NCBI GenBank assembly: GCA_900316245.1
Contig: ONCE01000001.1
Location: 1-64,000, forward strand
DNA length: 64,000 nucleotides
Reading direction: 5' to 3'
DNA from: an uncultured Bacteroidales bacterium
Lineage (GTDB): Bacteria; Bacteroidota; Bacteroidia; Bacteroidales; UBA932
The notes below the pieces were generated by a model, which saw only the letters and a program-made list of their open reading frames with translations, was not told the origin of the DNA and did not search any database. Each line of letters starts with the position of its first letter. The first letter of the stretch is position 1. Below, piece by piece: positions 1,346 to 61,000 of the stretch. Made by a program: the position numbers and the translations under genes.

Positions 1346-2424
1346 TTACTTTGAATGTAATTCCGCCACTTTTCGATGAGGGCGGACATATCTTCCGGGA
1401 GAGGGACTTCGAAATGAAGTCTCTCTCCTGTTTTTGGATGGGTGAAGCCCAGGGTGCGGGCGTGGAGGGCCTGCCTGGGGCAGATGGCAAAGCAGTTCTG
1501 GATAAACTGCTTGTATTTGGCGTAGATGGTGCCCTGGCGGATTTCGGAGCCGCCGTATCTTTCGTCGTTGAAGAGGGGATGGCCGATGGACGACATATGC
1601 ACGCGGATCTGGTGCGTACGGCCGGTCTCCAGGCGGCATTCCACCACGGTGATGAAGCCGAAGCGCTCCAGCACGCGCCAGTGCGTCACGGCCCATTTGC
1701 CTTTCTCCGGATCGTCGTACACGCGGAAGCGCAGGCGGTCGTTGGGGTCCCGGCCGATGGTGCCCTCGATGGTGCCTTCGTCCTCGGTAATGTTGCCCCA
1801 CACCACCGCCGTGTAGATGCGGTCTATGGAATGGACAAAGAATTGGTCGGCCAGGTTGAGCTGGGCCGAAGGATTCTTGGCCACCACCAGAAGACCGCTG
1901 GTGTCTTTGTCGATGCGGTGCACCAGTACGCCCATCCGCTCGTCCTCCACGTCGGGGGAGAGGTTCAGGTAATACGCCAGGGCATTGACCAGCGTCCCGT
2001 TGTAGTTGCCGTGCCCGGGGTGCACCACCATCCCGGCGGGCTTGTTAACCACCAGCACGTCATCGTCTTCGTAGACTATGTCCAGGGGAATGTTCTCCGG
2101 AAGAATCTCCGTACCGCGTCGCTCGTAGGGCATTACGAACTTGACCACGTCCAGGGGGCGGACGATATAGTTGGCCTTGACCACCTTGTCATTGACCAGC
2201 ACATAGCCCAGCTTGATGGCCTGCTGCACCCGGTTGCGGGAGGTGTCTTCCTGATGGTCGGCTATATATTTGTCTATCCGGACCGGCTCCTGACCTCTGT
2301 CCACAACCATCCTGAAATGTTCAAACATTTCGTCGGAAGATGCCCGATCGGTGTCGGGCATGACGTCATAGTCATCCCCGGCTTGACCGGGGATCTCTAC
2401 CTTTTTGAGAAGGTCTTCGGACAT
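1342..2424 (-). CDS. rluD: RluD-type 23S rRNA pseudouridine synthase with a repeat-derived N-terminus
   Basis: Isomerises uridines in rRNA. An S4 RNA-binding domain (about residues 46-100) is followed by the RluA/RluD catalytic domain. The catalytic Asp is D172 in HRIDKDTSG. At 360 aa it is near family length. Oddity: residues about 9-29 are encoded by a two-hairpin palindromic repeat (2339-2396) that also occurs in frame in purL, so this part of the N-terminus is probably acquired and non-catalytic. The gene overlaps the upstream PASTA gene by one base (TAATG), so the two are probably translationally coupled. Which of RluA, RluC or RluD it matches in specificity cannot be told by eye; RluD is the best guess. 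Confidence 0.9.
   Translation of the reverse strand: MSEDLLKKVEIPGQAGDDYDVMPDTDRASSDEMFEHFRMVVDRGQEPVRIDKYIADHQEDTSRNRVQQAIKLGYVLVNDKVVKANYIVRPLDVVKFVMPYERRGTEILPENIPLDIVYEDDDVLVVNKPAGMVVHPGHGNYNGTLVNALAYYLNLSPDVEDERMGVLVHRIDKDTSGLLVVAKNPSAQLNLADQFFVHSIDRIYTAVVWGNITEDEGTIEGTIGRDPNDRLRFRVYDDPEKGKWAVTHWRVLERFGFITVVECRLETGRTHQIRVHMSSIGHPLFNDERYGGSEIRQGTIYAKYKQFIQNCFAICPRQALHARTLGFTHPKTGERLHFEVPLPEDMSALIEKWRNYIQSN
2339..2396 (-). repeat. Two-hairpin palindromic repeat, copy 1 (inside rluD)
   Basis: On the minus strand the first hairpin (2394-2374) has an 8-bp stem ATCCCCGG/CCGGGGAT with loop TCAAG. The second (2361-2340) has an 8-bp stem ATGCCCGA/TCGGGCAT with loop CACCGA. It is read in frame as EIPGQAGDD...MPDTDRAS. 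The purL copy at 60888 keeps both loops and the reading frame but has compensatory stem changes. Confidence 0.85.
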
Positions 2425-3233
2425 TATTTGTTGGCGGGGAGTTTGGTCTGGTCCAGGGTGAGGGCAAAGTTGACGTTGGCCCCCAGGGAACGGCCGGCTC
2501 CAGCCGGATCCTGCTTATAGACCACGGCGTTCATAGAGTCTGCGTAGGTTTTGATATCGGGGTCGAACGTAATCTTACCCACGTTGAGGAAACGCTCGTG
2601 AATGGCGTCGATGGCGTTGACGTACTTCATTCCGGTGAGCTTGGGAACCGTGGTCTGGTTGTCCTGGGCGCCCACGCCCACAATGAGGTCTATGACCGAA
2701 CCGCTCACCACCAGGTCTCCGGCGGCCACTTCCAGTCCTTCACAGCTCTGACCCAGCACATTGTTGGTGGCTATGTCTTTCACATAGTTGAGACGGCCCA
2801 GGTTGAGACCGCGGTTGCGGAGTTCGGACCGGGCTTCCGTAACGGAATAACCGAAGAGGTTGGGCATCACCACCTTGCGGGGTATCACCGAGTTGATGGT
2901 GAGGAAGATGCTGCGGCCCTTCTTGACCGTGGCACCGGCCTTGGGCTGCTGGCGGTAGACCACGCCGCCGGCCAGACGCCGCACAAACACGGAGTCCACT
3001 ACCTTCACGGTCACGTGCGAACGGGAAGCCAGTTCCTGTGCCTGGGGAACGGTGAGGTTGGCAAAGTCCGGGGTCTTGACCACCTGTCCGTGGCGGGTGA
3101 TGATGTTCAGGGCCCAAGCGGCCAGAATACCCAGTGCCAGTACAAAGGCCAATCCCAGAAAGAGGTTCTTCCAAATCCACCTCTCTTTCTTTACTATCGC
3201 TTTGGCTTTAGCGGCGTTGATTTTTGAAGCCAT
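2424..3233 (-). CDS. Membrane-anchored PASTA-domain protein
   Basis: The 269-aa protein has a short basic cytoplasmic N-terminus, one transmembrane helix (about residues 20-45) and an exported part made of three PASTA-like repeats (roughly 50-115, 115-190, 190-265), recognisable by the recurring VPxLxGxxxxxA pattern and PxAGxxV turns. PASTA domains bind muropeptides or penicillin-like ligands in other proteins. Here there is no kinase or transpeptidase domain, so the protein may act as a cell-wall binding or sensing module. It is co-transcribed with rluD (1-nt overlap). A near-consensus -7 box (TATCTTCG, 3258-3265 on the minus strand) lies about 25 nt upstream, divergent from lnt. Its exact role is unknown. 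Confidence 0.85.
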   Translation of the reverse strand: MASKINAAKAKAIVKKERWIWKNLFLGLAFVLALGILAAWALNIITRHGQVVKTPDFANLTVPQAQELASRSHVTVKVVDSVFVRRLAGGVVYRQQPKAGATVKKGRSIFLTINSVIPRKVVMPNLFGYSVTEARSELRNRGLNLGRLNYVKDIATNNVLGQSCEGLEVAAGDLVVSGSVIDLIVGVGAQDNQTTVPKLTGMKYVNAIDAIHERFLNVGKITFDPDIKTYADSMNAVVYKQDPAGAGRSLGANVNFALTLDQTKLPANK

Positions 3234-3257
3234 AAACTCAGTTCTAGATTATCTCTG

Positions 3258-3265
3258 CGAAGATA
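3258..3265 (-). promoter_or_regulatory. -7 promoter box for the PASTA-rluD operon
   Basis: Minus-strand TATCTTCG is one mismatch from the Bacteroidota TAnnTTTG box and is back-to-back with the lnt promoter. Confidence 0.45.
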
Positions 3266-3278
3266 CGAAAAATATTTA

Positions 3279-3286
3279 TACCTTTG
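3279..3286 (+). promoter_or_regulatory. -7 promoter box for lnt
   Basis: TACCTTTG matches TAnnTTTG exactly. Only 5 nt separate it from the GTG at 3292, which suggests a leaderless or nearly leaderless mRNA. Confidence 0.65.
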
Positions 3287-3291
3287 CGTTG

Positions 3292-4911
3292 GTGAAAAGA
3301 CAAACCCTCATATTCGGGGCCCTCACACTGGCCTTCGCCCTGCTGATGAGCCTTCCCTGGCTGGTTCCTCACGTGGGCTGGCTGGCGCTTGTTGGCTTTC
3401 TTCCTCTCCTGATCCTGGAGCGGCTGGCCACGGAGTACAAAGTGAAGCACTTCTGGTGGTGGCATTATGGCGCGTTCGTGCTCTGGAATGCCGCAACCAC
3501 CTGGTGGGTGGGAGGTGCCACCGTAGGGGGAGCCGTCTTTGCCATCCTGGCCAACGCCCTGCAGATGAGCGTGGTCTTTGGGGCCTTCCGCTGGGTCAAG
3601 CGCCGCACCCGGGGCGTGCTGCCCTACGTGTTCCTGGCCGCCGCCTGGATAGCGTGGGAGCGGTATTACCTCACGGTGGCGGAGATTTCCTGGCCCTGGC
3701 TGGTGCTGGGCAATGCCTTTGCCGACACCACCGGCCTCATCCAGTGGTACGAGATTCTGGGCACTCTGGGCGGTTCGCTGTGGGTTTGGGTTAGCAACCT
3801 GAGCCTCTTCGGCCTGATGGTGGCCCTGTCCGATGGCCGCGTGGCTAATTGGAATGCCAAGGCCCGCGTAGCAGCCCTGGGAGGAACGCTCCTGGCCCTT
3901 TTCGGGCCGATGGTCTGGTCTGCCTTTGAAAAGCCGGAACCCTCCGAGCCCACCTTGAAGGTGGTCATCGGCCAGCCCAACTATGACCCTTACGAGAAAT
4001 TCCAGTCCCTCTCCCGCGCGGATCAGGACAAGCGCTATCTGGCTTTAATAGAACAGGCCGATTGGACCTCCGATGAGCCCACCCTGGTGCTGGCTCCCGA
4101 GACCTTCACTTCGCGCGTGTTCACGGACCGGGTCCTGGAGCACGAGACCTTCCTCCGCTTCCAGCAGTTCCTGAGGAAGCATCCGCAGGCCACCTTCCTG
4201 TATGGCGCCTCCACCATTGAACGCCTCTTTTCTTATGCCAGGCCTCACGACTGCGCCTATGACCTGGGCCAGGAAGCCGACGGCAAGCACCTGTGGGCGC
4301 TCACGCACAATTCGGCCTTCGTGACCGATACCGCCGGCGTGTATCAGATGTACCACAAGTCTAAACTGGTGGTGGGCACGGAACTCACGCCCTATCCCAA
4401 GGTGTTTATCCCGCTGGAGAACCTCCTGGGTGGCAATCTGATGGCCAAGGATGTGGGACAGAAAGAGATTTCCTGCCTGACGATGAAATCCCCGAACGGG
4501 AATCTTCCCATCGGCACGGCCATTTGTTACGAATCCGTCTACGGTGAATTCTGCACGGGCTATGTGCGAAAAGGTGCGCAGCTGCTGGCGGTCATCACCA
4601 ACGATGCCTGGTGGGGCAACACCCCCGGTTACCGGCAGCACCTCAATTACAGCCGCCTGCGGGCCATCGAGACCCGCCGCTGGGTGGCCCGCTGCGCCAA
4701 TACGGGCATATCGGCCTTCATCAGCCCTGATGGTAAAATCGTAGACCGCACCCCCTGGTGGGAGCCCGCCCTCCTCGAAGGCCGCGTGGGACTCTCCACC
4801 GAGCAGACCTTCTTCGTACGCTATGGGGATGTTGTAGGCCGCACCTCCGTCTTCCTCTTCCTCCTCCTCCTCGCCGCCGCCCTCTTCAGAGGCTCCACTC
4901 GGAAACAATAA
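3292..4911 (+). CDS. lnt: Apolipoprotein N-acyltransferase
   Basis: Transfers the third acyl chain to the N-terminal Cys of lipoproteins in the inner membrane. About six transmembrane segments fill the first ~200 residues and a nitrilase-type periplasmic domain follows. The catalytic triad is visible as Glu in LAPETF, Lys in YHKSKLV and Cys in AICYES. A C-terminal membrane helix ends the protein. The frame is open upstream to 3052, but that part overlaps the divergent PASTA gene and the promoter, so GTG 3292 (539 aa) is preferred. lspA, the preceding step of lipoprotein maturation, is also in the window (45463). Downstream lies a palindromic element rather than a gene. Confidence 0.93.
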   Translation: MKRQTLIFGALTLAFALLMSLPWLVPHVGWLALVGFLPLLILERLATEYKVKHFWWWHYGAFVLWNAATTWWVGGATVGGAVFAILANALQMSVVFGAFRWVKRRTRGVLPYVFLAAAWIAWERYYLTVAEISWPWLVLGNAFADTTGLIQWYEILGTLGGSLWVWVSNLSLFGLMVALSDGRVANWNAKARVAALGGTLLALFGPMVWSAFEKPEPSEPTLKVVIGQPNYDPYEKFQSLSRADQDKRYLALIEQADWTSDEPTLVLAPETFTSRVFTDRVLEHETFLRFQQFLRKHPQATFLYGASTIERLFSYARPHDCAYDLGQEADGKHLWALTHNSAFVTDTAGVYQMYHKSKLVVGTELTPYPKVFIPLENLLGGNLMAKDVGQKEISCLTMKSPNGNLPIGTAICYESVYGEFCTGYVRKGAQLLAVITNDAWWGNTPGYRQHLNYSRLRAIETRRWVARCANTGISAFISPDGKIVDRTPWWEPALLEGRVGLSTEQTFFVRYGDVVGRTSVFLFLLLLAAALFRGSTRKQ

Positions 4912-4928
4912 TTCTATATTTTGGATGG

Positions 4929-5114
4929 GTGCCCTTCAAGGAGAGCCTCCTGAAGGTACGGACCTTCGGTCCTATCCCTCCCACCGCTTCGCGGCGGGCC
5001 CCTCTCCCATACTGGGAGATCCCCACCCTTTCCCCCTATAGTCCCCCAGGGGACATCTGCCCTTACGGGGGCCATGGGCGGCTACGCCTTCAGGAGGCTC
5101 TCCCTGAAGGGCAC
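4929..5114. repeat. 186-bp palindromic element bounded by 27-bp inverted repeats
   Basis: Left arm 4929-4955 and right arm 5088-5114 are inverted copies, 26 of 27 positions matching. Between them are nested GC-rich hairpins (for example around CCGCTTCGCGG, and GTCCCCCAGGGGAC at 5041-5054). There is no coding potential. It looks like a non-autonomous MITE-like or terminator-derived intergenic repeat. No target-site duplication was recognised. Confidence 0.7.
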
Positions 5115-5138
5115 TACTTCTTTCCGGAAGATGTTTTT

Positions 5139-5372
5139 CTAGAAAAGTGTAGGATGATTCTCTTCTAATTCAGAGAGAACCTTGGACATAATGGCTTCGC
5201 GGAAGAGCGTGGCCTTGGCGTGGACCTTGAAACGGGAACAATACTCGTCAATGGCTGCCAGTTCACTGTCATTAAAATAGAGCATATAGCGATTCTTCCG
5301 GAGAAGCATCTCCTTCTGCTTCTCCAGGTACGCGGGATCTACCCCCGGTATGCTCTTTTTCTTCCGCGGCAT
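5139..5372 (-). CDS. Small conserved ribbon-helix-helix-like protein
   Basis: This 77-aa protein has a basic N-terminus (MPRKKKSIPG), then KNRYMLYFNDSELAAIDEY, a strand-helix pattern like that of ribbon-helix-helix DNA-binding proteins, and the acidic tail LEENHPTLF. I recall similar small proteins in Bacteroidales but cannot assign a function. The GTG at 5381 overlaps the -7 box, so ATG 5372 is preferred; it lies 8 nt after TATCTTTG (5388-5381), suggesting a very short leader. It stands alone, between a palindromic element and the tandem thioredoxin gene. An antitoxin-like or nucleoid regulatory role is possible, but no toxin neighbour is present. Confidence 0.7.
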   Translation of the reverse strand: MPRKKKSIPGVDPAYLEKQKEMLLRKNRYMLYFNDSELAAIDEYCSRFKVHAKATLFREAIMSKVLSELEENHPTLF

Positions 5373-5380
5373 GACGGTCA

Positions 5381-5388
5381 CAAAGATA
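5381..5388 (-). promoter_or_regulatory. -7 promoter box for the RHH-like gene
   Basis: Minus-strand TATCTTTG, 8 nt before the ATG at 5372. Confidence 0.6.
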
Positions 5389-5393
5389 ACGAA

Positions 5394-6851
5394 TTATTTC
5401 AAGAGTTGCACATAACGGTGCTGCACAATGCCTTTGCGGTCCAGTTCTATCACGAACGGTAACACGGAAAGGTCAAAATGGTCCAGCAGTTCGTTGGCCA
5501 TTTCGGGCTTGTCGCTGTACAGGGCGTCCATATCTATGAGCAGGACCTTGGCCTTCCGGTTTTCCTGGACAATGGTGTCCACGGCTCCCAGGAGTTCCTT
5601 GCAGGCGGAGCAACTGGGGGTGTAGAATACTATAAAGGTAGGATTGCCTTTGAGCTTGCGGAACTTGAACGTGCCCTCCTTGCGGGCTTTCCGGAACAGG
5701 CCGGGCTTGCGCCTCAGGACGCCGTCGGCGGAAAGGTCCGGGACCTCTGAACCTACCGGGGTGCGATTGGCCAGGGCCACCATCAGTTCTCCGAGGGAAG
5801 TGATCTGGGCCTTGTCGGCCTCGGTATTCCAAATCTCGGGCTGCTCTATGTACTTCTGGATGAAGGGGACACTGGCGTCCCGGTACACCTCCGTCCGCTG
5901 GGAGAAGAGGTAGTACAGCAGGTCTCCGAAGGTTTGCTTGTAGGCGTTGACGTCTCCTTCTCCGAAGGTCCTCTGGGCCATATAATCGGCCACGGACATT
6001 ACGTCGGAAACTTTGAGGGTATCTCCGTAGGCGGAGAAGAGCTGCTGCAGGCGCTCCATTTCCCCTTCTTCGCCATAGATGTAATCTTCCTTGGAGAATT
6101 CCCGGTTGAGGAGGATTTCCAGGGCCGATGTATCCAGCCCGCGGCCCACGATTTCGCCGCCGCCATTCACCAGGAACATCCGGGGCGTCTGAAGGACGCC
6201 GTAGAGAATCTGCCAGTCCGAACTGACGGCGGGATCCCAGAGATGGGTGACGCCTTCAAAGTTCTCGCGGTAGGCGGCCCATTCTTGGGCCGATGCCCCT
6301 ACATAGATGGCGTAAACGGTGATGGGATACTTTTCGGAGGCCACCAGTTTCTGCAGTTTGGGGGTTTCCCGCTTGCAGGTGGCGCAGCCGGTGTCGTAGA
6401 AATACAGGACGGAGTACGTGTCCTTGGCCGGGATGCGCAGCGTGGTGCTGTCCGGGGCAAAGAGCGTAAGGGCCGGTGCCGGGCAGCCGATGAGGGAAGA
6501 CTCGTTGAACTTTACGTAAATCTGCGCGTTCAGAAGGTCCTCGTCCGTTTTCATCTTGACGTCTCCGGAGAGGAACCACTTGCGGGCCACGTGGACGGCC
6601 ACGGCATCGTCTCCCATAATCTTGGACTTGAGATAGTGGTCGTAAATCTTGAGAGCCGTATACTGCCGCACCAGGGAGTCCTGGCAGGTTTCAATGAGGA
6701 AATCGCATTCTTCGTTCTGCACGGCGGCCGGTTCGCCGGCCAGGGCAATGAAATACTGGTCCAGCTTGGCCCCCAGTTCCGGATAGGGCTGTTGGGCAAA
6801 GGCCCCCAGGCCCAGCAGCAGGGCAGACAGGCTTAGCAGAAGCTTTCTCAT
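5394..6851 (-). CDS. Exported protein with two thioredoxin-like domains
   Basis: A Sec signal peptide (about residues 1-19, cleaved near AFAQ) precedes 485 aa in total. A helical region of roughly 100 residues, a TlpA-like domain with C156-A-T-C159, a second helical linker (about 245-375) and a C-terminal thioredoxin fold with C414-S-A-C417 follow in order. Both CxxC pairs are intact, so it could reduce or exchange disulfides in the periplasm. The first domain resembles the Bacteroidales DUF5106/TlpA lipoprotein family, although here there is no lipobox. It overlaps coaD by ATGA, so it is the last gene of the ung-coaD transcript. Its substrate is unknown. Confidence 0.85.
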   Translation of the reverse strand: MRKLLLSLSALLLGLGAFAQQPYPELGAKLDQYFIALAGEPAAVQNEECDFLIETCQDSLVRQYTALKIYDHYLKSKIMGDDAVAVHVARKWFLSGDVKMKTDEDLLNAQIYVKFNESSLIGCPAPALTLFAPDSTTLRIPAKDTYSVLYFYDTGCATCKRETPKLQKLVASEKYPITVYAIYVGASAQEWAAYRENFEGVTHLWDPAVSSDWQILYGVLQTPRMFLVNGGGEIVGRGLDTSALEILLNREFSKEDYIYGEEGEMERLQQLFSAYGDTLKVSDVMSVADYMAQRTFGEGDVNAYKQTFGDLLYYLFSQRTEVYRDASVPFIQKYIEQPEIWNTEADKAQITSLGELMVALANRTPVGSEVPDLSADGVLRRKPGLFRKARKEGTFKFRKLKGNPTFIVFYTPSCSACKELLGAVDTIVQENRKAKVLLIDMDALYSDKPEMANELLDHFDLSVLPFVIELDRKGIVQHRYVQLLK

Positions 6852-7306
6852 AAGACCACGCCCTCCGGAACAAAGGTGGAGAGGTCTCCGCCGTGACGCA
6901 GGATGTCCCGCACGGCCGAGGAGCTGATGTGCGCAAACTCCTGGGCGGTAGGGATGATGATGGTCTCGATCTCCGGGGCCAGGCGGCGGTTGGCGTCTGC
7001 GATGGAACGCTCCGTCTCGAAGTCGATCATATTGCGGACACCCCTCACAATGTGGTGGATGCCCATCTGGCGGCAGGCTTCGATGGTGAGGTTTTCGTAC
7101 TGGGTAATGGAAACGCCTTCCATCCCTTGGGTGGCCTGCCGGATAATGTCCAGGCGCTTTTCCATAGAGAAAAAGCCCGGTTTGTCCTGGTTGATACCTA
7201 CGGCCACCACTACCTCGTCAAACATGGTGAGGGCGCGCCTTAGGATATTCAGATGGCCGGCCGTAAACGGGTCAAAAGAGCCGGGGAAAAGTGCAACGTG
7301 TTTCAT
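6848..7306 (-). CDS. coaD: Phosphopantetheine adenylyltransferase
   Basis: Catalyses the penultimate step of CoA synthesis, 4'-phosphopantetheine + ATP to dephospho-CoA. The nucleotidyltransferase start motif PGSFDPFTAGHLNIL is at the N-terminus and HISSSAVRDIL near the C-terminus. The 152-aa length from ATG 7306 is typical. A frame extension upstream lies inside ung and is not used. The ATG overlaps the ung stop (ATGA) and the coaD stop overlaps the next start in the same way, giving a tightly coupled ung-coaD-thioredoxin unit. Confidence 0.95.
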   Translation of the reverse strand: MKHVALFPGSFDPFTAGHLNILRRALTMFDEVVVAVGINQDKPGFFSMEKRLDIIRQATQGMEGVSITQYENLTIEACRQMGIHHIVRGVRNMIDFETERSIADANRRLAPEIETIIIPTAQEFAHISSSAVRDILRHGGDLSTFVPEGVVL

Positions 7307-7971: not shown

Positions 7972-7974
7972 GCC

Positions 7975-8005
7975 TTTTCGTCATGCCCGGCTCCGACCGG
8001 GCATC
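7975..8005 (-). repeat. Palindromic repeat half-copy abutting the lon stop codon
   Basis: On the minus strand the stem ATGCCCGG/CCGGGCAT (8004-7997 with 7990-7983) has loop TCGGAG and is followed by the same tail (GACGAA) as the first hairpin of the purL copy. Only the first hairpin of the two-hairpin element is present. The stem starts directly after the lon stop codon. Confidence 0.7.
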
Positions 8006-10410
8006 TAAAAGATGAAGTTGATAACGTCTGCTATCGTTTTCACATAGACAAAGATAAGTCCTTTTATGTAAATTTCCTTGATATCTTCTACATCTTTTCG
8101 GTTTTCTTCCGAAATCACGATGGTGTGGACGCCGGCCCGTTTGGCCGCCAGGATCTTCTCCTTGATGCCACCCACCGGCAGCACGCGGCCGCGGAGGGTC
8201 ATCTCGCCGGTCATGGCTATGCCCTTCTTGGGCGCCTGGCCGCGCAGGGCGCTCACCATTGAACTGACCATCGTAATGCCGGCCGAAGGACCGTCCTTGG
8301 GCGTGGCGCCTTCCGGCACGTGCAGGTGGATGTCCTTCTTCATAAACTCCTCGGTGGTGATGCCGGCCAGTTCGGGATGGGCCTTGATGTACTGCCAGGC
8401 AATCTGGGCGCTTTCCTTCATCACGTCTCCCAGGTTACCGGTCATGGACAGGTTGCCCTTGCCGTCCGAAACCTGGCTTTCCACAAAGAGGACTTCTCCT
8501 CCCATCTCGGTCCAGGCCAGGCCGGTTACCACGCCTACGCCTTCGTTGCCGGCCACATCGTCGTGGAAGGCGGTGGGCAGGCCCAGGTACTCGCGCAGGT
8601 GCTCCGGGCCAATGGTGCGGGGGAACTCCTGCTCCATGGCCATCTTCTTGGCCGTCACGCGGGCTATCTTGGCAATCTGCTTCTCCAGGCCGCGGACACC
8701 GCTCTCGTGGGTGTACTTGTCTACAATCTCCTTGAGGGCTTCGTCGGAGATGGAGAGTTCATCGGCCCTCAAGCCGTGCTCCGTGAGCTGCTTGGGAACC
8801 AGGTACTGGTGGGCAATCTGGAGCTTTTCTTCGGCCAGATAACCGGACACGTTGATCATCTCCATACGGTCCTTGAGGGCCGGCTGGATGGTGCCAATTC
8901 CGTTGGCCGTGGTGATGAACAGGACGTTGGAGAGGTCGTAGTCGATGTCCAGGTAGTTGTCGTGGAAGGTGCTGTTCTGCTCGGGGTCCAGGGCTTCCAG
9001 CAGGGCGCTGGACGGGTCTCCCTTGAAGTCCGAAGCCAGTTTGTCAATCTCGTCCAGGACTATTACCGGATTGGAGGTGCCGGCACGCTGGATACCGCTG
9101 AGGATACGGCCCGGAAGCGCTCCTACATAGGTTTTGCGGTGGCCTCTGATCTCTGCCTCGTCGTGCATACCGCCCAGCGAGATGCGGATATATTTTCTGC
9201 CCAGGGCCCTTGCGATGGACTTGCCCAGGGAGGTCTTGCCCACTCCGGGAGGGCCCCACAGGCACAGGATGGGCGATTTCATATTGCCCTTGAGTTTCAG
9301 GACAGCCAGGTACTCGATGATACGGTCCTTGACCTGGTCCAGGCCAAAGTGGTCCTGGTCCAGCACTTCCTGGGCGTGGGCCAGATCCAGGTTGTCGTCC
9401 GACATCTCTCCCCAGGGGAGGTCCAGCATAAACTGGATGTACGCAAACTGGATGCTGTAGTCCGGAGAGGTGGGGTTGTACTTCTCCAGGCGGGCCATTT
9501 CCTTGTCAAAGATGGCGCGGACTTCCTTGGACCACTTCTTTTCATCGGCCCTTCTGCGCATCTTTTCAAACTCTTCTCCCTCGTCCATACCCAGCTCTTC
9601 CTGGATGGTGCGGAGCTGGTTGTTGAGGTAGTACTCTCTCTGCTGCTGGTCTATGTCCGTCTTGACCTTCTGGTTGATCTCCTGCTTGATCTGCAGGAGC
9701 TGGGTCTGGGCGTCCAGCACCCGGAGGAGGGACATACCGCGCTCGTGGATGTCCGTGATGGACAGCAGGGCGGTGCGCTCCTGGAAGTTCTCCACCTCGA
9801 TGGTGGTGGCAATGAAGTTGACCAGGAAGTGGAAGTTCTCTATGCTGCGGAGGGCGCCGATGGCTTCCTTGGGAGCAAACGAAGAGGACTTCACTACCAT
9901 AGCGGCCTTTTCCTTCAGGGATTCGGCCAGGACGCGAAGTTCCCGCTCGTCGATTCCGGTGGGAACCGACTCCTCCAGGTACGTCACGCGGGCCATCATA
10001 TAAGGGTCGTAGCTGATGACGCTCTCCAGGGCGGCGAGCTGCGAACCCTGCAGGATGGCGGTTACGCTGCCGTCGGGCATCTCCAGCGTCTTGATGAGCT
10101 TACAGACGGTGCCGTGGCTGCAGAGGTCTGCCTCCGTGGGTTCTTCTACGGAAATATCGGCCTGGGGAATGGCCACCAGCCAGCCGGTTCCGGACTCTAC
10201 GTCGGACACCAGCTTGATGCTCTTTTCCCGCCCCACGGTAACGGGGAAGACCGTTCCCGGGAAGATGACGGCGTTGCGCAGGGGCAGCACCGGCAGGGCA
10301 GGGGGGAGCTGGGAAGTGTCCACTTTCATGGATGCGGCTTCTCCCACCACAGGCATAATGTTAACTTCGACGCCGGCGGGCGTATTCATATTGTCTAAAA
10401 AATCAATCAT
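8005..10410 (-). CDS. lon: ATP-dependent protease Lon
   Basis: An AAA+ cytoplasmic protease for damaged and regulatory proteins. From ATG 10410 it is 801 aa. The N-terminal LON substrate-binding domain (LPVLPLRNAVIFPG) and a coiled-coil region are followed by Walker A GPPGVGKTSLGKS, Walker B VIVLDEIDKL, and the protease domain with catalytic Ser in GPSAGITM and Lys in VGGIKEKILAAKRAG. The frame is open about 36 codons further upstream, but ATG 10410 is preferred because the extension is low-complexity and overlaps the divergent HU promoter region. The stop codon abuts a palindromic repeat half-copy. Confidence 0.96.
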   Translation of the reverse strand: MIDFLDNMNTPAGVEVNIMPVVGEAASMKVDTSQLPPALPVLPLRNAVIFPGTVFPVTVGREKSIKLVSDVESGTGWLVAIPQADISVEEPTEADLCSHGTVCKLIKTLEMPDGSVTAILQGSQLAALESVISYDPYMMARVTYLEESVPTGIDERELRVLAESLKEKAAMVVKSSSFAPKEAIGALRSIENFHFLVNFIATTIEVENFQERTALLSITDIHERGMSLLRVLDAQTQLLQIKQEINQKVKTDIDQQQREYYLNNQLRTIQEELGMDEGEEFEKMRRRADEKKWSKEVRAIFDKEMARLEKYNPTSPDYSIQFAYIQFMLDLPWGEMSDDNLDLAHAQEVLDQDHFGLDQVKDRIIEYLAVLKLKGNMKSPILCLWGPPGVGKTSLGKSIARALGRKYIRISLGGMHDEAEIRGHRKTYVGALPGRILSGIQRAGTSNPVIVLDEIDKLASDFKGDPSSALLEALDPEQNSTFHDNYLDIDYDLSNVLFITTANGIGTIQPALKDRMEMINVSGYLAEEKLQIAHQYLVPKQLTEHGLRADELSISDEALKEIVDKYTHESGVRGLEKQIAKIARVTAKKMAMEQEFPRTIGPEHLREYLGLPTAFHDDVAGNEGVGVVTGLAWTEMGGEVLFVESQVSDGKGNLSMTGNLGDVMKESAQIAWQYIKAHPELAGITTEEFMKKDIHLHVPEGATPKDGPSAGITMVSSMVSALRGQAPKKGIAMTGEMTLRGRVLPVGGIKEKILAAKRAGVHTIVISEENRKDVEDIKEIYIKGLIFVYVKTIADVINFIF

Positions 10411-10541
10411 ATCTGCCAAAATGTCATACTTTGGGGCACAATTTGCCCGGTCCCTTATATGGTCAATCTTTGTGCCAAAGAAAGATGCTGACAGGAAAAA
10501 GATTTTTGGGCCTAACATTTTGAAATCTCAAAAATTAAGTC

Positions 10542-10549
10542 TAATTTTG
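10542..10549 (+). promoter_or_regulatory. -7 promoter box for HU
   Basis: TAATTTTG, 49 nt before the HU start. The 188-nt lon-HU interval is otherwise AT-rich and non-coding. Confidence 0.6.
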
Positions 10550-10598
10550 CCAAGTTTTTCCGCTAGAGTAAAAACTAAATTTTTAAACTATAAAAACT

Positions 10599-10877: not shown

Positions 10878-10897
10878 ACCTTTAATTTTTTTATATT

Positions 10898-10987: not shown

Positions 10988-11004
10988 GAGCTTCTTCCAA
11001 GAGT

Positions 11005-11037
11005 AAAGGGCTTGCCTAAACGTCGCAGGCCCTTTTT
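11005..11037 (+). terminator. Terminator after the HU / basic peptide genes
   Basis: An 11-bp stem (AAAGGGCTTGC with GCAGGCCCTTT, one wobble) followed by a short T-run. Confidence 0.75.
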
Positions 11038-15268: not shown

Positions 15269-15365
15269 ATGAACTGCATCGATAGAATCTTCGATTCATT
15301 GGTGAGAGGACTCCCCAAACCCCTCCCTCGTCGCTCCGCGCCGGAACTAAGGTCTCCGACAGACT

Positions 15366-15396
15366 GGGGGCCTAATCCCCCAGACCCCCTGGGTCG
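15366..15396. repeat. Dispersed 31-nt GC-rich repeat, copy A
   Basis: It matches 41013-41043 at 30 of 31 positions. It contains two overlapping hairpins (GGGGG...CCCCC and CCAG...CTGG). Confidence 0.8.
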
Positions 15397-15426
15397 GCCT
15401 TCGGCCTCCGGAATGAGTTTCCACCC

Positions 15427-15571
15427 CTCCCGAGCACGAAAACGACTCTCCTGGTGCTCGGAACCCGGTATTTTTTCCTCCCGAGCACGGAAATGGCCTT
15501 CCTGGTGCTCGGAACCCGGTTTTTCCCCCTCCCGAGCACGAATAGGGCCTTCCTGGTGCTCGGCCCCACCT
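15427..15571. repeat. Tandem array of three 51-nt units, each with one hairpin
   Basis: Units start at 15427, 15478 and 15529, exactly 51 nt apart; the third is cut short. Each has the perfect 8-bp stem CCGAGCAC/GTGCTCGG, first at 15430-15437 with 15454-15461. The period is a multiple of three but no credible protein uses it. Confidence 0.85.
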
Positions 15572-15645
15572 TCATCCCGACCTTAGCCGTCGTTATGGCC
15601 GACCTGATCGGCCATCTCCCACCCAGCCCGAGGTAGACGAGCCAT

Positions 15646-15714
15646 TTCTTGTCCCGTTTACCTCGAAAACCCATGTTTTTCGACCCTAACGTGCCTTTTC
15701 TTGTCCCGTTTACC
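15646..15714. repeat. Spaced 17-nt direct repeat
   Basis: The same 17 bases, TTCTTGTCCCGTTTACC, occur at 15646-15662 and 15698-15714, 52 nt apart. Confidence 0.75.
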
Positions 15715-16044
15715 GCACCTGACCGTTAATCTTGACGCCGCAACCAGCAAAAATCGCCAAAAGTGCAGGCTGTCAGGTTAAGGTTCGGTGGAGATAGAAG
15801 GATCAGAAGAAGCGCGGGAGACTGTGCAACGCCCAGAAAAGCTTTGGGTGCGGTGCGGGGGCCTGTGCCAGCGGTTACGCCTCGTTTGCCTGTGGGCAAA
15901 CGCCGCGCCCTTTTAAGGAACCTACACCCCACCAGCGGTGCCAATGGCAACGTTCATCACATGCCCATGGGTTCAAAGGTTGGCACACATTTATTCGGGG
16001 GTCGGGTGCCGGGCCTACGGCCCAGAAAGAAAAATACCGTGAGA

Positions 16045-40997: not shown

Positions 40998-41012
40998 TAC
41001 GTTGCACGTACA

Positions 41013-41043
41013 GGGGGACTAATCCCCCAGACCCCCTGGGTCG
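41013..41043. repeat. Dispersed 31-nt GC-rich repeat, copy B
   Basis: It matches 15366-15396 at 30 of 31 positions and sits between tsaB and cvpA, where it could act as a bidirectional terminator. Confidence 0.8.
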
Positions 41044-51693: not shown

Positions 51694-51694
51694 A

Positions 51695-53850: not shown

Positions 53851-53862
53851 AATTTATATTTC

Positions 53863-55437: not shown

Positions 55438-55491
55438 ATAATTGTCATTTTGTCAAATTGTCGTTTTGGGAAACGTTATTCTTTCGGGTTG

Positions 55492-55499
55492 CAAAATTA
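55492..55499 (-). promoter_or_regulatory. -7 promoter box for the exporter operon
   Basis: Minus-strand TAATTTTG, 54 nt before the tolC-like ATG. The 180-nt gap to the AraC gene is AT-rich and is the likely regulator binding region. Confidence 0.6.
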
Positions 55500-55593
55500 C
55501 TGCCATTTTTGCACAATGTTGGGAGCTTTTAGGGGACAGAATTATTCAAAAGGTCGAATTATGCGTCTTTTTGCAAATATCGAATAAAAGCAT

Positions 55594-55601
55594 TACCTTT
55601 G
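55594..55601 (+). promoter_or_regulatory. -7 promoter box for the AraC-type regulator
   Basis: TACCTTTG, 16 nt before the ATG at 55618. Confidence 0.6.
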
Positions 55602-55617
55602 TCAAAAATTCGCATCT

Positions 55618-56550
55618 ATGGAGAAAGAAACCCTGCAAACCATTGATATCAAGCGCATCCTGGCGCTGGCTCCCATCATTGATGAGTACTCCCTGGGAAC
55701 CGACTTCATTATGGGAGAGGTGAGCGGTAAAAAGGTTGAAAAGAGCGAGGCCATCCTGTCCATGCTCAAGTACCCCGTGCGCTTTGACGGCCATATCATC
55801 TTCTTCCTCAAGAAGGGGCACTTCTCCATGGACCTTAATCTTAATACGTACGAGTTAAAGCCCCAGTCGCTGCTGGTCTGCGTGCCGGGGAACATCATCA
55901 AGCTCTCGTCCTATGACGAAGACCACATCGGGGATGCGGAACTCTATTTCGTGCTGGCTTCGCAGGAGTTTATGAACGGCATCCGCTTTGACTTCAACAA
56001 GATCTTCCAGGAGACGCTGAGCCTCTGGAAGAATCCCTGCATCACGTTAAGCGAGGGAGATTTGTATTTGGCCGAAGAATATTTCAAGCTGGGCCGAAGC
56101 ATCGTGCTGGGAGAGCAGCTGAACAAGAAGGAAATCCTGGGTTCGCTGCTAACCTCTTTCACCTATGCGGTCCTGGATGTCTGGACCCGTAGAATCAACG
56201 AGGCCAAGGAGGATGAGAATCCCTCATCGGCCCGCGTGAACCAGCTCTTCGAGCGGTTTATGTCGCTGGTGACGGAGTACCACATCACGCAGCGGGGGAT
56301 GGCGTTCTATGCAGAGAAGCTCTGCCTTACGCCCAAGTATCTGTCCAAACTGGTAAAACAGGCAAGCGGACGCAGTGCGCCCGCCTGGATAGATTCGTTT
56401 GTGATTCTGGAAGCCAAGAATATGCTCAAGTACTCAGACAAGAGCATCAAGGAAATCGTCTATGAACTCCATTTCCCCAACCAGTCCGTCTTTTACAAGT
56501 TCTTCAAGGCCCATACGGGTATGACTCCCTCGGAATACCGGAGAGGCTAG
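55618..56550 (+). CDS. AraC family transcriptional regulator
   Basis: A 310-aa protein with an N-terminal cupin-like sensing domain and a C-terminal double helix-turn-helix (about 205-308): LCLTPKYLSKLVKQASGRS, then SIKEIVYELHFPNQSVFYK and FFKAHTGMTPSEYRRG. It is divergent from the tolC operon, so it probably controls it. Its inducer is unknown. Its stop overlaps the convergent metallopeptidase by 4 nt. Confidence 0.92.
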   Translation: MEKETLQTIDIKRILALAPIIDEYSLGTDFIMGEVSGKKVEKSEAILSMLKYPVRFDGHIIFFLKKGHFSMDLNLNTYELKPQSLLVCVPGNIIKLSSYDEDHIGDAELYFVLASQEFMNGIRFDFNKIFQETLSLWKNPCITLSEGDLYLAEEYFKLGRSIVLGEQLNKKEILGSLLTSFTYAVLDVWTRRINEAKEDENPSSARVNQLFERFMSLVTEYHITQRGMAFYAEKLCLTPKYLSKLVKQASGRSAPAWIDSFVILEAKNMLKYSDKSIKEIVYELHFPNQSVFYKFFKAHTGMTPSEYRRG

Positions 56551-57413
56551 AGCTGGCTGTCGGAGAGGCTGAAGGTGTCTCCCTGGCGGATGTCTCCGGT
56601 GGTGAGGCCCTTCTTGAGCCAGCGCATACGCTGGGCGGCCGTCCCGTGGGTGAAGGATTCCTCCACGGCGAAGCCCTGGGCCTTCTTCTGGAGATAGTCG
56701 TCTCCGATGACCTGGGCGCAGCGGATGGCTTCTTCCAGGTCTCCGTCTTCCAGCGAGCCGAAGAGGGCGTTCTCGTAGTGGCCCCATACGCCGGCGTAGA
56801 AATCGGCCTGTAACTCTATGCGCACGCTCATATGGTTGGCTTCGGCCTTGGACATCCGGGCCATCTTGGCGTGGGCCTGGTCCAGGGTGCCCAGCAGGTG
56901 CTGGACGTGGTGGCCTACCTCATGAGCTATTACGTACGCGTACGCGAAGTCGCCGTCGGCCCCCAGTTGCTGGCGCATACTGGAGAAGAAGGAAAGGTCT
57001 ATGTAGAGGTTTTCATCGGCCGAACAGTAGAAGGGTCCCATGGCGGCTTGGCCCTGCCCGCAGGAGGTGGAGGTGCTGCCGGTGTAGAGAACCAGGGTAG
57101 GGGCCTTGTAGGCACCCAGGCCGTTGTCTGCGAAGTACTGGGTCCAGACGTCTTCCGTAGAAGCCAGGATCTGGCGGGAGAATTTGGCCAGGGCTTCGTT
57201 TTCCGGAGTGGGCTCGTAGCTGGTGACGGTCTTGCCCACGCCCATACCGCCGGATTTTTCTACATTTTGAATCACGTCTCCCAGGTCTCCTCCCATCAGG
57301 AAAGTAACCAGAGCTACTACCAATACGCCGCCAATGCCCAGGCCGGCAGCCTTGCCGGTGATGCCTCTGCGGTCTTCTACGTGGATGCTTTCGCGTCTTC
57401 CGTCCAGTCTCAT
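56547..57413 (-). CDS. YpfJ-type neutral zinc metallopeptidase
   Basis: A 288-aa protein starting MRLDGRRES, with one transmembrane helix (about residues 21-45), and the zinc motif HEVGHHVQHLLG around residue 166. It matches the putative neutral zinc metallopeptidase (YpfJ) family, of unknown substrate. It has its own promoter (TAACTTTG, 57445-57438), divergent from purE. Confidence 0.9.
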   Translation of the reverse strand: MRLDGRRESIHVEDRRGITGKAAGLGIGGVLVVALVTFLMGGDLGDVIQNVEKSGGMGVGKTVTSYEPTPENEALAKFSRQILASTEDVWTQYFADNGLGAYKAPTLVLYTGSTSTSCGQGQAAMGPFYCSADENLYIDLSFFSSMRQQLGADGDFAYAYVIAHEVGHHVQHLLGTLDQAHAKMARMSKAEANHMSVRIELQADFYAGVWGHYENALFGSLEDGDLEEAIRCAQVIGDDYLQKKAQGFAVEESFTHGTAAQRMRWLKKGLTTGDIRQGDTFSLSDSQL

Positions 57414-57437
57414 AGATATCAGTTTTAGTTGTTGTCA

Positions 57438-57445
57438 CAAAGTTA
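57438..57445 (-). promoter_or_regulatory. -7 promoter box for the YpfJ-type peptidase
   Basis: Minus-strand TAACTTTG, 24 nt before the ATG. Confidence 0.6.
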
Positions 57446-57501
57446 ATAAAAATGTTGGTAAAATTCTTCTTGCCTTTCTTGTAAGAATGCCGGATTCGGT
57501 T

Positions 57502-57509
57502 TAACTTTG
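57502..57509 (+). promoter_or_regulatory. -7 promoter box for the purine operon
   Basis: TAACTTTG, 32 nt before purE. The leader is too short for a purine riboswitch. Confidence 0.65.
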
Positions 57510-57541
57510 CAACTTGTTTTTTGGGTTAGTTTTTGTAAAAT

Positions 57542-58009
57542 ATGAAGGTTGCTATTATTATGGGTAGTGCCAGCGACTACGAAGTAATGTCGCCGGCTAT
57601 GTCCACCCTCGATGAATTTGGCATTTCCTACGAGAAAAAAGTGCTTTCCGCCCACCGCAATCCGGGCCCCCTGGCAGAGTATGTGAGCTCCCTCAAGGAC
57701 AAAGGCTGCGAGATTGTGATTGCGGGCGCCGGCGGTGCCGCCCATCTGCCTGGAGTCATAGCCGCCCTCACCACGCTCCCTGTAATCGGGGTGCCGGTGA
57801 AATCCAAGGCTCTGATGGGAATGGACTCCCTCCTGTCCATTGTGCAGATGCCCTCCGGAATCCCTGTAGCCACCATGGCCATCGACGGTTCCAAGAATGC
57901 TGCCCTCTACGCAGTAGCCATCATGGCCCTCCACGACCAGACCCTCGCGCAGAAACTGGAACAGTTCCGCAAACAGCAGAGCGAAAAAGTACTCAATACA
58001 GTAATATAG
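57542..58009 (+). CDS. purE: N5-carboxyaminoimidazole ribonucleotide mutase
   Basis: Class I PurE, 155 aa, converting N5-CAIR to CAIR. MGSASDYEVMSPA is the phosphate-binding loop and SAHRNP the catalytic His motif. First gene of the operon. A terminator lies between it and purL, so PurE may be made in excess. Confidence 0.95.
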   Translation: MKVAIIMGSASDYEVMSPAMSTLDEFGISYEKKVLSAHRNPGPLAEYVSSLKDKGCEIVIAGAGGAAHLPGVIAALTTLPVIGVPVKSKALMGMDSLLSIVQMPSGIPVATMAIDGSKNAALYAVAIMALHDQTLAQKLEQFRKQQSEKVLNTVI

Positions 58010-58013
58010 AATT

Positions 58014-58053
58014 GTGCCCACCACCGCATACGCGCTGGTGGGCACTGCTTTTT
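58014..58053 (+). terminator. Terminator or attenuator between purE and purL
   Basis: A 10-bp perfect stem GTGCCCACCA/TGGTGGGCAC (58014-58023 with 58036-58045) followed by TGCTTTTTAA. It ends 6 nt before the purL ATG. Confidence 0.8.
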
Positions 58054-58058
58054 AATTT

Positions 58059-61000
58059 ATGGAAAGACCCCGGAGAATATTTGTAGAGAAGCGGGAAGGC
58101 TTCCGCGTTGAGGCTGCCAGCCTCCTCAAGGATTTCAACGAGAACCTCTCGCTGTCTCTTCGTTCACTCAGCCTTTACAATGTTTACGACCTCTTCGGCT
58201 TTTCCGACGAGCTGTTGGAGAAGTGCCGTTACACCGTCTTTGGAGAAACGGTGACGGATGAGGTAAGCGACAACGCCCCTGCGGGCAAGAAATACCTGGC
58301 CGTGGAGTACCTGCCCGGACAGTTTGACCAGCGCGCCTCTTCGGCCGTGGACTGCGTCCACCTCATCGACCCTGAGGCCGATGTCCAGATCAAGAGCGCC
58401 CGCCTGCTGGTCTTCGGAGAAGAGATTACCCCCGAAGAGCTGGACCGTGTGGCCCACTACTTCATCAACCCGGTGGAGAGTCGCCGCAAAGACCTGAGCG
58501 TCCTCTCCCTGGCCGAGAAAGCAGACGTCAAGCCCCTGGAAGACCTGACGGGCTTCATCGATATGAAGGAAGAAGCCTTCGGCCCCTTCTGCAAGAGCCA
58601 CGGACTGGCTATGAATACGGACGACCTCCGCGAGGTGGTGAATTACTTCCGCAAGGAAGGCCGCAACCCCTCCGAGACCGAACTCCGCATCCTGGACACA
58701 TACTGGAGCGACCATTGCCGCCACACCACCTTCACCTCCCAGTTGGAGGAAATCACGGTGGACGAGTCCTTCATCAAGGCCGAACTGCAGGAATCCCTGG
58801 ACCTCTTCCATAAGATGCGCAAGGAGTTGGGCCGAAGCGAAAAGCCCCTCTGCCTGATGGAACTGGCTACCATCGGAGCCCGCTGGCTCAGAAAGAACGG
58901 CAAGCTGGAGGACCTGGAGCAGAGTGAAGAGAACAACGCCTGCAGCATCTTCGTGAACGTGGACGTGGACGGCCAGATGGAAAAGTGGCTGCTCCAGTTC
59001 AAGAACGAAACGCATAACCATCCCACGGAGATTGAGCCTTTCGGCGGCGCTGCCACTTGCCTGGGCGGTGCCATTCGTGACCCTCTTTCCGGGCGTGCCT
59101 ATGTGTACCAGGCCATGCGCGTGACGGGCGCCGGTGACATCTGCGCCCCCGTGAGCGCCACCATCCCCGGCAAACTGCCCCAGCGGATGATTTCCAAGAA
59201 GGCCGCCGCCGGTTATTCCAGCTACGGAAACCAGATTGGTCTGGCCACCACGCACGTGCGCGAGATCTATTCTCCCGGCTACACCGCCAAGAGAATGGAG
59301 ATTGGCGCCGTAGTGGGCGCCGTGAAGGCTTCCAACGTACGCCGTGAGAGCCCCGCTCCGGGAGACGTGATCCTGCTGCTGGGCGGCCGCACCGGCCGAG
59401 ACGGCATTGGCGGAGCCACGGGTTCTTCCAAGCAGCACACCGAGGCCTCCCTGGAGAGTTGCGGCAGCGAGGTGCAGAAGGGTAACGCCCCCGAGGAGCG
59501 CCAGCTCCAGCGCCTGTTCCGCCGTCCGGAAGTGACCCGCCTCATCAAGAAGTCCAACGACTTCGGCGCCGGCGGCGTGAGCGTAGCCATCGGCGAACTG
59601 GCCGACGGCCTGGACATCTACCTGGACCGCGTTCCCGCCAAGTATGCCGGCCTCAATGCCACCGAGCTGGCCATCTCCGAATCCCAGGAGCGTATGGCCG
59701 TGGTGGTGGAAGCCAAGGATAAGGAAAAGTTCGAAGCCCTCTGCGGGGCCGATAATATAGAAGTAACCCACGTGGCCGATGTCACCGCATCCGGCCGGAT
59801 GAGAATGTTCTTCCACGGGGAGGAGGTCTGCAACCTTGCCCGCACCTTCATTGACAGCGCCGGTGCCAAGCACTACGCCAAGGCTGCTATGGGTACCGTG
59901 GAGAATCAGAATCCCTTCATCCGCAAACCGGAAGGCGCCGGCCTGGAAGAGAAGCTGGTGGCCGTGATGAGCAGCCCCAACGTGGCTTCCCAGAAGGGCC
60001 TGGTGGAGATGTTCGACTCCACCATTGGCCGTTCTACCGTTCTGATGCCTTACGGCGGAGCCCGTCAGGCCACCGAGACCCAGGTCTCCGTGCAGAAACT
60101 GCCGGTAGACGGTTACACCGATACCGCCAGCGTGATGGCTTTCGGTTACAACCCGGACCTGGCTCTGTGGAGCCCCTACCACAGCGCTGCCTATGCCGTG
60201 GTGGAGGCCTGCACCAAGGTCTCCTGCGCCGGAGCTGACTATTCCAAGATGCGTTTCTCCTACCAGGAGTACTTCGAGCGGATGACTTCCGACCCTCACA
60301 GTTGGGGCAAGCCCCTTTCGGCCCTCCTGGGTACCCTCAAGATGCAGGCAGCCCTGGGCCTTCCCTCCATTGGCGGCAAGGACTCCATGAGCGGCACCTT
60401 CGAGCACCTGAACGTTCCTCCCACCCTGGTGGCCTTCGGTATCACCACCGTGAATGCCGGAACGGTCATTTCTCCGGAATTCAAGAAAGCGGGCAACAAG
60501 ATTTACCTGCTTAAGCATACGCCCCTGGCCAATTATATGCCCAACACGGACCAGCTCCAGAGCAACTGGACCTGGCTGCGCAGGCAGATTGAGGCCGGAA
60601 AGGTGGTTTCGGCCTGGTCCCTGAGCTACGGCGGCGTGGCCGAGGCCCTGGTCAAGATGTCCCTGGGCAATGCCCTGGGCGTAAACGTCAAACTTCCCGA
60701 GGACGACCTCTTCTCTTTGGGCTACGGATCGGTCGTATTTGAATCTACCGAATCTTTTGAAGAGGCCGTCCTTTTGGGCGAAGTTACCGCTGCCGGCATC
60801 TGCATCAACGGCACCTGCGTGTCGCTGGAGAAGCTGGAAGCGGCTTATGAAGGCAAGTACTTCAAGCTCTATCCTCCCAGAGTGGAGATGCCCGGTCAAG
60901 CCGGGCATGACGAAGGGGTCAATACCATCATGGCCGACACCGATCGGCCCTCCAACCTGGTGTACGCCGGGGCTCCGGTGGAGCATCCCGTTGTGTGTAT

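Follow-up and report, generated by a model that had tools for sequence, protein, structure and literature searches.

The stretch of DNA analysed here (the window) comprises the first 64,000 nt of contig ONCE01000001.1 (C27 in our numbering, positions 1-64000) of the Bacteroidales genome GCA_900316245.1, a 2.24 Mb assembly in 35 contigs that is 92.8% complete. An earlier note, made from the window alone, had described a two-hairpin palindromic repeat lying in frame within two of its genes, rluD and purL. This observation was confirmed. In addition, the element proved to be a head-to-head dimer belonging to a known class of repetitive extragenic palindromes (REPs), a point beyond what could be seen from the window. 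Most probably, both copies belong to a family of short, non-autonomous, CGTC-tagged repeats of the REP kind, which occur as single units and head-to-head dimers and have spread through the genomes of the genus. At least 109 units are dispersed in the window's own genome, repeat-free sites are present in close relatives, orientation and reading frame of the units are biased, and the same protein loops are reused by other repeats.

The repeat unit is a short palindrome of 28 to 29 nt, consisting of a CGTC tag, a stem of 8 bp starting with AT and a loop of either five (CTTGA) or six nucleotides (CACCGA). In each of the reported copies a five-loop and a six-loop unit are combined with their CGTC tags facing each other; close dimers of this type are approximately 61 nt long. 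On the sense (minus) strand of rluD, the copy reads ATCCCCGG-TCAAG-CCGGGGAT followed by ATGCCCGA-CACCGA-TCGGGCAT (2340-2394), with two perfect 8-bp stems. The first hairpin in purL (ATGCCCGG-TCAAG-CCGGGCAT, 60888-60908) also has a perfect stem, while the second one is degenerate (GGCCGA-CACCGA-TCGGCC, 6-bp stem, CATC instead of CGTC). With R1, a covariance model of the unit built from 34 distinct units, it reaches 17.6 bits (E 0.0023 for the window), compared to 43.5 to 49.6 bits for the three other dimer units. Both copies were located where they had been reported and share a reading frame, encoding EIPGQAGDDYDVMPDTDRAS in RluD and EMPGQAGHDEGVNTIMADTDRPS in PurL. In rluD, the units are found 27 to 87 nt downstream of the predicted gene start (2424), which is supported by its overlap with the stop codon of the upstream gene; the true start may, however, be the internal ATG of MFEHFR. 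The rluD product scores 263.4 bits with the RluD equivalog model NF008385, below the cut-off of 351. What had been taken for a third half-copy at the lon stop is indeed a repeat, but a full single unit (Table 1), the tail of which supplies the TAG stop codon (8005-8007); Lon was confirmed by a family model. At gathering thresholds, Rfam models identified three tRNAs in the whole window and no known RNA family matching the repeat.

Table 1. Repeat units and host genes in the window
Feature	Position	Strand	Support
Host gene rluD, RluA-family pseudouridine synthase	1342..2424	-	NCBIfam TIGR00005 299.9 bits, cut-off 192.7
Six-loop REP unit (CACCGA), 3' half of the rluD dimer, encodes VMPDTDRAS	2337..2365	-	R1 43.5 bits
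Five-loop REP unit (CTTGA; TCAAG on gene strand), 5' half of the rluD dimer, encodes EIPGQAGDD	2370..2397	+	R1 44.6 bits
Single six-loop unit (loop CTCCGA) between lon and the next gene	7979..8007	+	R1 45.2 bits
Single five-loop unit (loop CCTGA) outside predicted coding sequences, adjoins a 51-nt tandem array	15591..15618	+	R1 37.7 bits
Host gene purL, phosphoribosylformylglycinamidine synthase	58059..61757	+	TIGR01857 1669.9 bits, over cut-off
Five-loop REP unit in purL, encodes EMPGQAGHDE	60885..60912	-	R1 49.6 bits, joint best in genome
Degenerate six-loop unit, second half of the purL dimer, encodes IMADTDRPS	60926..60954	+	R1 17.6 bits, E 0.0023, filters off

With R1, the whole genome yielded 115 matches at E<=1; those with E<=1.1e-3, 109 in number, were retained and six weaker ones dropped. 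Since the best 150 of 2430 candidates were scored, this number is a lower bound; the degenerate second hairpin of purL is not among the units counted. A degenerate one-unit pattern matched the genome 48 times compared to 0 matches for a reversed control, and both unspecified stem pairs were complementary in all 23 matches with at most one mismatch. The free stem positions of this pattern provide less biased support for the stem than the seed alignment of R1, in which an 8-bp stem starting with AT is found in 34 of 34 rows. These rows were selected for ..TCAT and for pairing at eight of eight positions; their complete pairing is therefore not counted as proof of covariation. Four of the eight stem pairs vary on both sides. 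The tag is CGTC in 45 of 52 units, followed by CCTC (5), TGTC (1) and AGTC (1), with the pattern used ([CTA][GC]TCAT) leaning to such tags. Loops of 6 nt occur in 19 of the 52 units, and the bases following the stem are CTC (27), CTT (10), CTA (7), CCC (5) or CTG (3). Among 25 pairs of neighbouring units not more than 200 bp apart, 14 are arranged head-to-head, 10 head-to-tail and one tail-to-tail. Twelve of the 14 head-to-head pairs combine a 28-nt with a 29-nt unit, and nine are spaced by 3 to 7 nt.

Genes were predicted around all 109 units by means of a simple codon-usage score, for which the window served as training set. Forty-six units (approximately 42%), distributed over 32 host genes, are located inside predicted coding sequences; seven extend across an end of such a sequence, and 56 are outside. 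Twenty-nine hosts were scanned against NCBIfam, of which 24 match a model at E<=1e-5 and five match none (two of the latter have Pfam matches over the cut-off and one a weak match); RluD, PurL and ClpX were matched separately. Hosts with a match over the model cut-off are PurL, the RluA-family synthase RluD, ClpX, DnaG, DnaX, MutL, MetG, TruB, TrmB, MnmA, an RsmE-family methyltransferase, RnfG, PBP1C, RfbB, HutI, a MATE transporter, a protein with alpha-2-macroglobulin domains and a DNA-alkylation-repair protein. Significant matches under the cut-off were obtained for AtpG (187.2 vs 194.45 bits), SodB, LacZ and for BglX-like, FtsK-like, LolC/E-type, AddB-like and uracil-glycosylase-like proteins. 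In alignments of SodB, RfbB, HutI, MnmA, AtpG and TruB with PDB chains, the segments on either side of the insertions are well aligned, while the insertions themselves coincide with gaps or with stretches of poor match. Units outside coding sequences are located not more than 60 bp from a gene 3' end in 33 of 49 cases measured, and of 51 such units with both neighbouring genes predicted, 32 lie between codirectional, 17 between convergent and two between divergent genes. The same placement, at gene 3' ends and in non-divergent gaps, has been published for REPs.

Inside coding sequences, the units favour one frame each. Five-loop units are read in antisense frame 0 in 22 of 28 cases, with four frames open, and typically encode E-M/I-P-G/D-Q-A/V-G-x-D (e.g. 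EMPGQAGHD). Six-loop units are read in sense frame 2 in 14 of 18 cases, with four or five frames open depending on the loop, and typically encode V-M/I-P-x-x-D-R-A/P/E-S (e.g. VMPGSDRAS). If units were independent and open frames equally likely, the binomial probabilities would be 4e-9 and 2e-7, respectively; the true surprise is smaller, because the units of one dimer are linked. In all nine heterodimers with both units in a coding sequence, the five-loop unit is on the 5' side of the gene. The favoured frames are free of stops and cysteine and yield glycine, proline and aspartate, which makes selection for tolerable linkers the simplest reading of the bias.

The earlier note had named as adverse outcomes that all relatives carry the same peptide at the same site, that empty sites are missing and that the pattern is absent elsewhere in the genome; the opposite was found in each respect. 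Within purL, an R1 unit was detected in one of 80 named relatives only (L073, 79% identical), in the same linker and with a sequence of its own. Of the 24 closest relatives listed, most have a linker of 94 nt, compared to 106 nt in the window. The nearest named PurL relative (89% identical; the window's own species may be excluded) belongs to a Bacteroidales metagenome-assembled genome (MAG) from dairy-cattle reticulum, and many of the next-best relatives are MAGs with titles naming ruminant stomachs. Four further relatives (L072, L074, L076 and L079) have other, longer in-frame inserts in this PurL linker, some with clear inverted repeats; those of L076 and L079 have a nearly identical stretch of more than 120 nt in common. 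As judged by eye, the repeat peptide is present in none of the 25 RluD N-termini and none of the 15 ClpX sequences listed from the same genus. The RluD N-terminus of relative G005 contains TPSEVEES, perhaps another repeat.

Twenty further host genes were compared with up to four relatives each (G003, G005, G019 and G028). Of 63 site comparisons, 44 showed no repeat detectable by the R1 model and the patterns used, 15 showed an R1 unit and four another repeat. At least one repeat-free relative was found for 19 of the 20 genes, the exception being SodB, for which one relative, carrying a unit, was compared. Some of the loops scored as repeat-free contain long unclassified inserts (TrmB in G005 and G019, MATE in G005, MetG in G019). 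The clearest case of loop reuse is the metG linker, which contains one R1 unit in the window's own genome, a dimer of the R1 kind in G003, TGTCATACCGAGCGAAGCGAGTGTATCTC in G005, TGTCATTCTGAGCGCAGCGAAGAATCT in G028 and another inverted repeat in G019. Similarly, some relatives carry other repeats in the respective loop of hutI. Repeat-free sites together with other repeats in the same loops point to repeated insertions into tolerant loops, and the comparison with Rickettsia drawn in the earlier note holds.

R1 was also applied to relatives in the same genus and to other genera of the order (E<=0.001, best 93 candidates per genome scored, absences leaning on stricter filters). Units were detected in 33 of 48 relatives from the genus, ranging from 1 to at least 94 per genome, and in none of the remaining 15. 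In the other genera, 4 of 32 genomes had matches. A sample of the phylum (395 genomes including the window's own, E<=1e-6, best 19 candidates per genome scored) yielded matches in 56 genomes, distributed over 35 of 171 genera. Twenty five-loop units were picked by hand from G003, G019, G037 and G039, 11 of which are located in predicted coding sequences, seven of these in the same frame; the habit of residing in genes thus extends beyond a single genome. Tandem runs of R1-type units with a regular spacing of about 48 to 51 nt were seen in the window's own genome (C4:669-748) and in two relatives (G014:C13:32-160 and G039:C18:272915-273038).

A RAYT-like transposase had been proposed as something to look for. 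Three Y1_Tnp genes are indeed encoded in the genome, two of them being distant matches to NF047646 REP_Tyr_transpos (33.5 and 31.9 bits; cut-off 80); their association with the repeats is weak by correlation as well as by position. On contig C22, units are located 284 bp and approximately 0.9 kb from a Y1 gene (C22:30120 to approximately 31040), which lies between them. Units are also present inside the predicted coding sequences of both its neighbours, one being a DNA-alkylation-repair gene and the other a weak match to uracil glycosylase. Within the 49 genomes of the genus, a Y1 gene is found in 30 of 34 genomes with units and 7 of 15 without (Fisher p 0.0036). With stricter definitions, p is 0.018 (at least 5 units) and 0.089 (at least 10 units), and the Spearman coefficient is 0.29 (p 0.041). 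The link between a Y1/RAYT-like enzyme and the repeats is suggestive only. The same C22 locus contains a direct repeat with a hairpin (GCGGTAGACG...CGTCTACCGC; entry labelled L173) at C22:29209-29255 and C22:31350-31396, which flanks the DNA-alkylation-repair gene and the RAYT-like Y1 gene. As a candidate for the repeat family it was rejected, because its 47-nt pattern (up to three mismatches) occurs just twice in the genome, the copies being 2.1 kb apart. A hairpin of similar appearance is located at approximately 15630-15720 in the window.

Rickettsia is the best-known source of in-frame palindromes within conserved proteins, and further cases are found in the REP literature. The Rickettsia palindromic elements (RPEs) were reportedly described by Ogata et al. 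in 2000 and 2002.

The class of REPs to which the units belong has been defined by Di Nocera et al. (2013, PMC3733652), who, in the parts of their paper considered here, report it from five phyla including Bacteroidetes, with G. forsetii being CGTC-positive; the kind of repeat is hence already known. According to these authors, CGTC REPs have an unpaired CGTC (or TGTC, CCTC) tag, a stem of 8 to 9 bp starting with AT, a loop of 4 to 5 nt (other lengths in some species) and a 3-nt tail that is mostly CCA. Head-to-head dimers, often heterodimers, predominate and head-to-tail pairs are "negligible". The repeats are mostly found between co-directional or convergent genes, no dedicated transposase is reported, and intragenic copies include REP-bearing tRNA pseudouridine synthases in several species. 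The units described here agree in the tag, the 8-bp AT stem, the 5-nt loop of the five-loop units, head-to-head heterodimers, non-divergent gaps, intragenic copies including those in tRNA pseudouridine synthases and the lack of an established dedicated transposase. The unit in TruB repeats, in another phylum, the pattern published for tRNA pseudouridine synthase B. In contrast, one partner of the dimers usually has a 6-nt loop here (the five-loop units fit the 4 to 5 nt of the class), head-to-tail pairs are more common (10 of 25), and approximately 42% of the units are in predicted coding sequences with a strong bias of frame and orientation. The tail is mostly CTC instead of CCA, which alone does not exclude the repeat from the class, since PMC3733652 states "most". 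The main-text parts of PMC3733652 considered contain no intragenic set from Bacteroidetes. Likewise, no account of such in-frame repeats in Bacteroidales was found by titles and abstract beginnings among the matches listed in the openly licensed literature. What appears to be new is the coding load, the bias in frame and the sharing of landing loops; the number of conserved proteins affected is unusual.

The likeness to RPEs holds by kind, as RPE-4 and RPE-6 are placed among the CGTC repeats in the pages of PMC3733652 considered. RPEs are described, as far as PMC10969869 was consulted, as elements of about 150 bp inserted in frame in unrelated genes. Both systems consist of palindromes in frame in many unrelated genes (32 hosts here), including tRNA pseudouridine synthase; compared by description, they differ in size (approximately 150 bp in Rickettsia, 28- to 29-nt units and 61-nt close dimers in Bacteroidales). 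We file the repeat as a CGTC REP family working like RPEs and do not claim membership of an RPE family. GTAG REPs with their RAYT (REPtrons; PMC3733652 and PMC6006769, both in part) are similar in being short palindromes in head-to-head pairs in genomes with RAYT-like Y1 genes, but differ in the tag (GTAG instead of CGTC) and in the vicinity of the Y1 loci, one of ten examined here having nearby units. Two further systems are known to us by description from parts of the respective papers: Coxiella burnetii miniature inverted-repeat transposable elements (PMC5896051), repeats said to bear on protein-coding sequence, and coding palindromes in nematomorph mitochondria (PMC6649704), inverted repeats of up to 284 bp in other organisms.

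As to the mechanism, the repeat might move as the hairpin substrate of an enzyme acting in trans, for which an IS200/Y1-type, RAYT-like transposase would be the natural candidate. It would land at many places and be removed by selection except at tolerated sites. Besides positions between genes, tolerated sites would be surface loops or linkers inside genes, provided that the insertion alters the length by a multiple of three overall and that its frame is open and hydrophilic. Surviving peptides (e.g. EMPGQAGHDE, VMPGSDRAS) would take the place of native loops or add a few residues to them, being tolerated rather than known to be useful.

Several points weigh against a mobile repeat family filtered by selection. 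Transposition was not observed, and no target duplication is readable. Units were found within approximately 1.5 kb of one of ten Y1 loci examined and of none of the other two own and seven relatives' loci; the statistics on Y1 genes and repeats ignore kinship and completeness, and a genome from another genus (G070, 99% complete) has 39 units without any Y1 match. The location in open frames is partly built into the gene finder, which sees open frames only, and broken genes would count as outside coding sequences; which of the open frames is used is not determined by construction. Between co-directional genes, the bias has the same direction but is weaker (28-nt units antisense in 8 of 13, 29-nt units sense in 14 of 19 cases; Fisher p 0.11 and 0.046, respectively, compared to coding sequences), and the orientation bias may thus stem from insertion itself. 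In 12 of the 20 host loops, one or more relatives have an R1 unit as well; some of the insertions may therefore have been inherited, with later loss. The surface-loop location of the sites is derived from alignments, not structures. Finally, the PurL linker is extended by 12 nt although the dimer measures approximately 70 nt, and single units add a net 5 to 11 residues compared to repeat-free relatives (MetG aside, where G019 has another long insert); as the gains are this small, native sequence seems to have been lost and clean insertion is in doubt.

These length changes bear on an alternative in which the repeat is copied without a transposase, spreading from existing copies through replication slippage, template switching or gene conversion. 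Such copying would account for native loop sequence being replaced rather than merely split. The PurL and ClpX linkers fit replacement with a small change in length, as do SodB (+5 and +2 residues at two sites compared to the best PDB chain, 1ues) and RfbB, in which the repeat-bearing loop is no longer than in PDB chain 8du1. The loose connection to a transposase points in the same direction, and no dedicated one is reported for these repeats in PMC3733652 either. However, constant tags bound the units at many unrelated sites, and TruB shows a near-clean gain of 30 nt compared to three of four relatives. We consider copying of this kind rather unlikely, though it would account for the replacement.

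It is less likely still that the repeats are kept for a use, with hairpins or peptides serving mRNA stability, translation or protein linkers. The proximity of units outside coding sequences to gene 3' ends and their avoidance of divergent gaps would fit such a role, as REPs have been proposed to act as RNA elements, and so would the strong frame bias inside genes. Proteins of RNA modification and of DNA replication and repair are frequent hosts (RluD, TruB, TrmB, MnmA, RsmE, DnaG, DnaX, MutL), and a similar remark on hosts is made for other species in a part of PMC3733652. Transporters, glycosidases and metabolic enzymes are hosts as well, nearly all host genes compared have a repeat-free close relative (19 of 20), and 15 of 49 genomes of the genus are without a match. 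It is highly improbable that gene calling or metagenome binning produced the coding insertions as artefacts: the gene finder is home-made, the assembly incomplete and the rluD copy close to the start codon, but family models span the insertion in many proteins (AtpG, HutI, TrmB, MetG, RfbB, SodB, MutL), PDB chains align on both sides in six of six cases tried, and in-frame units are present in other genomes of the genus too.

Beyond the family of mobile CGTC-tagged REPs, which we prefer, a wider proposal is put forward tentatively and is doubtful at present. The filter of a dense genome could have shaped the CGTC repeat into a "protein-compatible" mobile hairpin, which in its favoured orientation encodes a short, flexible Gly/Pro/Asp peptide and could therefore insert into core-protein genes. 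Loops and linkers of such proteins would be shared docking sites, at which unrelated repeat families take each other's place from one sister species to the next, and loop evolution in the genus would be driven to a large part by the turnover of repeats. The metG linker would be an example of such a docking site, holding R1-type units in two species and a different kind of repeat in each of three others.

Other repeats were noticed alongside R1. A second short repeat, TGTCATACCGAGCGAAGCGAG(C/T)GTATCTC, is found in frame in AtpG, DnaX and TruB, with the peptide VIPSEASVS; its ends resemble the R1 repeat while its core differs. A simple pattern for it gave eight matches in the 57 regions of the window's own genome that were examined (C22:33585 and 33609, C13:37889, C16:27335 and 27392, C23:47528, C27:81676 and C33:45835). 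Just before the single unit at 15591, a 51-nt palindromic unit (CCCGAGCACG...GTGCTCGG) is present in three tandem copies in the window (15426-15578), and this flank also precedes a unit at C1:4906-4933. A dispersed 34-nt repeat (GGGGG..TAATCCCCCAGACCCCCTGGGTCG) is located at 15363-15396 and 41010-41043, the copies being 94% identical.

Palindromes within proteins thus occur at a scale similar to Rickettsia in a genus of Bacteroidales that probably comes from gut or rumen. With dozens of sequenced sister species and sites that are empty, filled or differently filled, the movement of CGTC repeats without a known transposase, the choice of the surviving frame and a possible cost of the peptide become testable. 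Annotators should note that unusual linkers, for instance EMPGQAGHDE or VIPSEASVSP, probably derive from repeats and do not represent conserved domains. In this bacterium, a spreading DNA repeat probably rewrites the loops of proteins, much as in Rickettsia.

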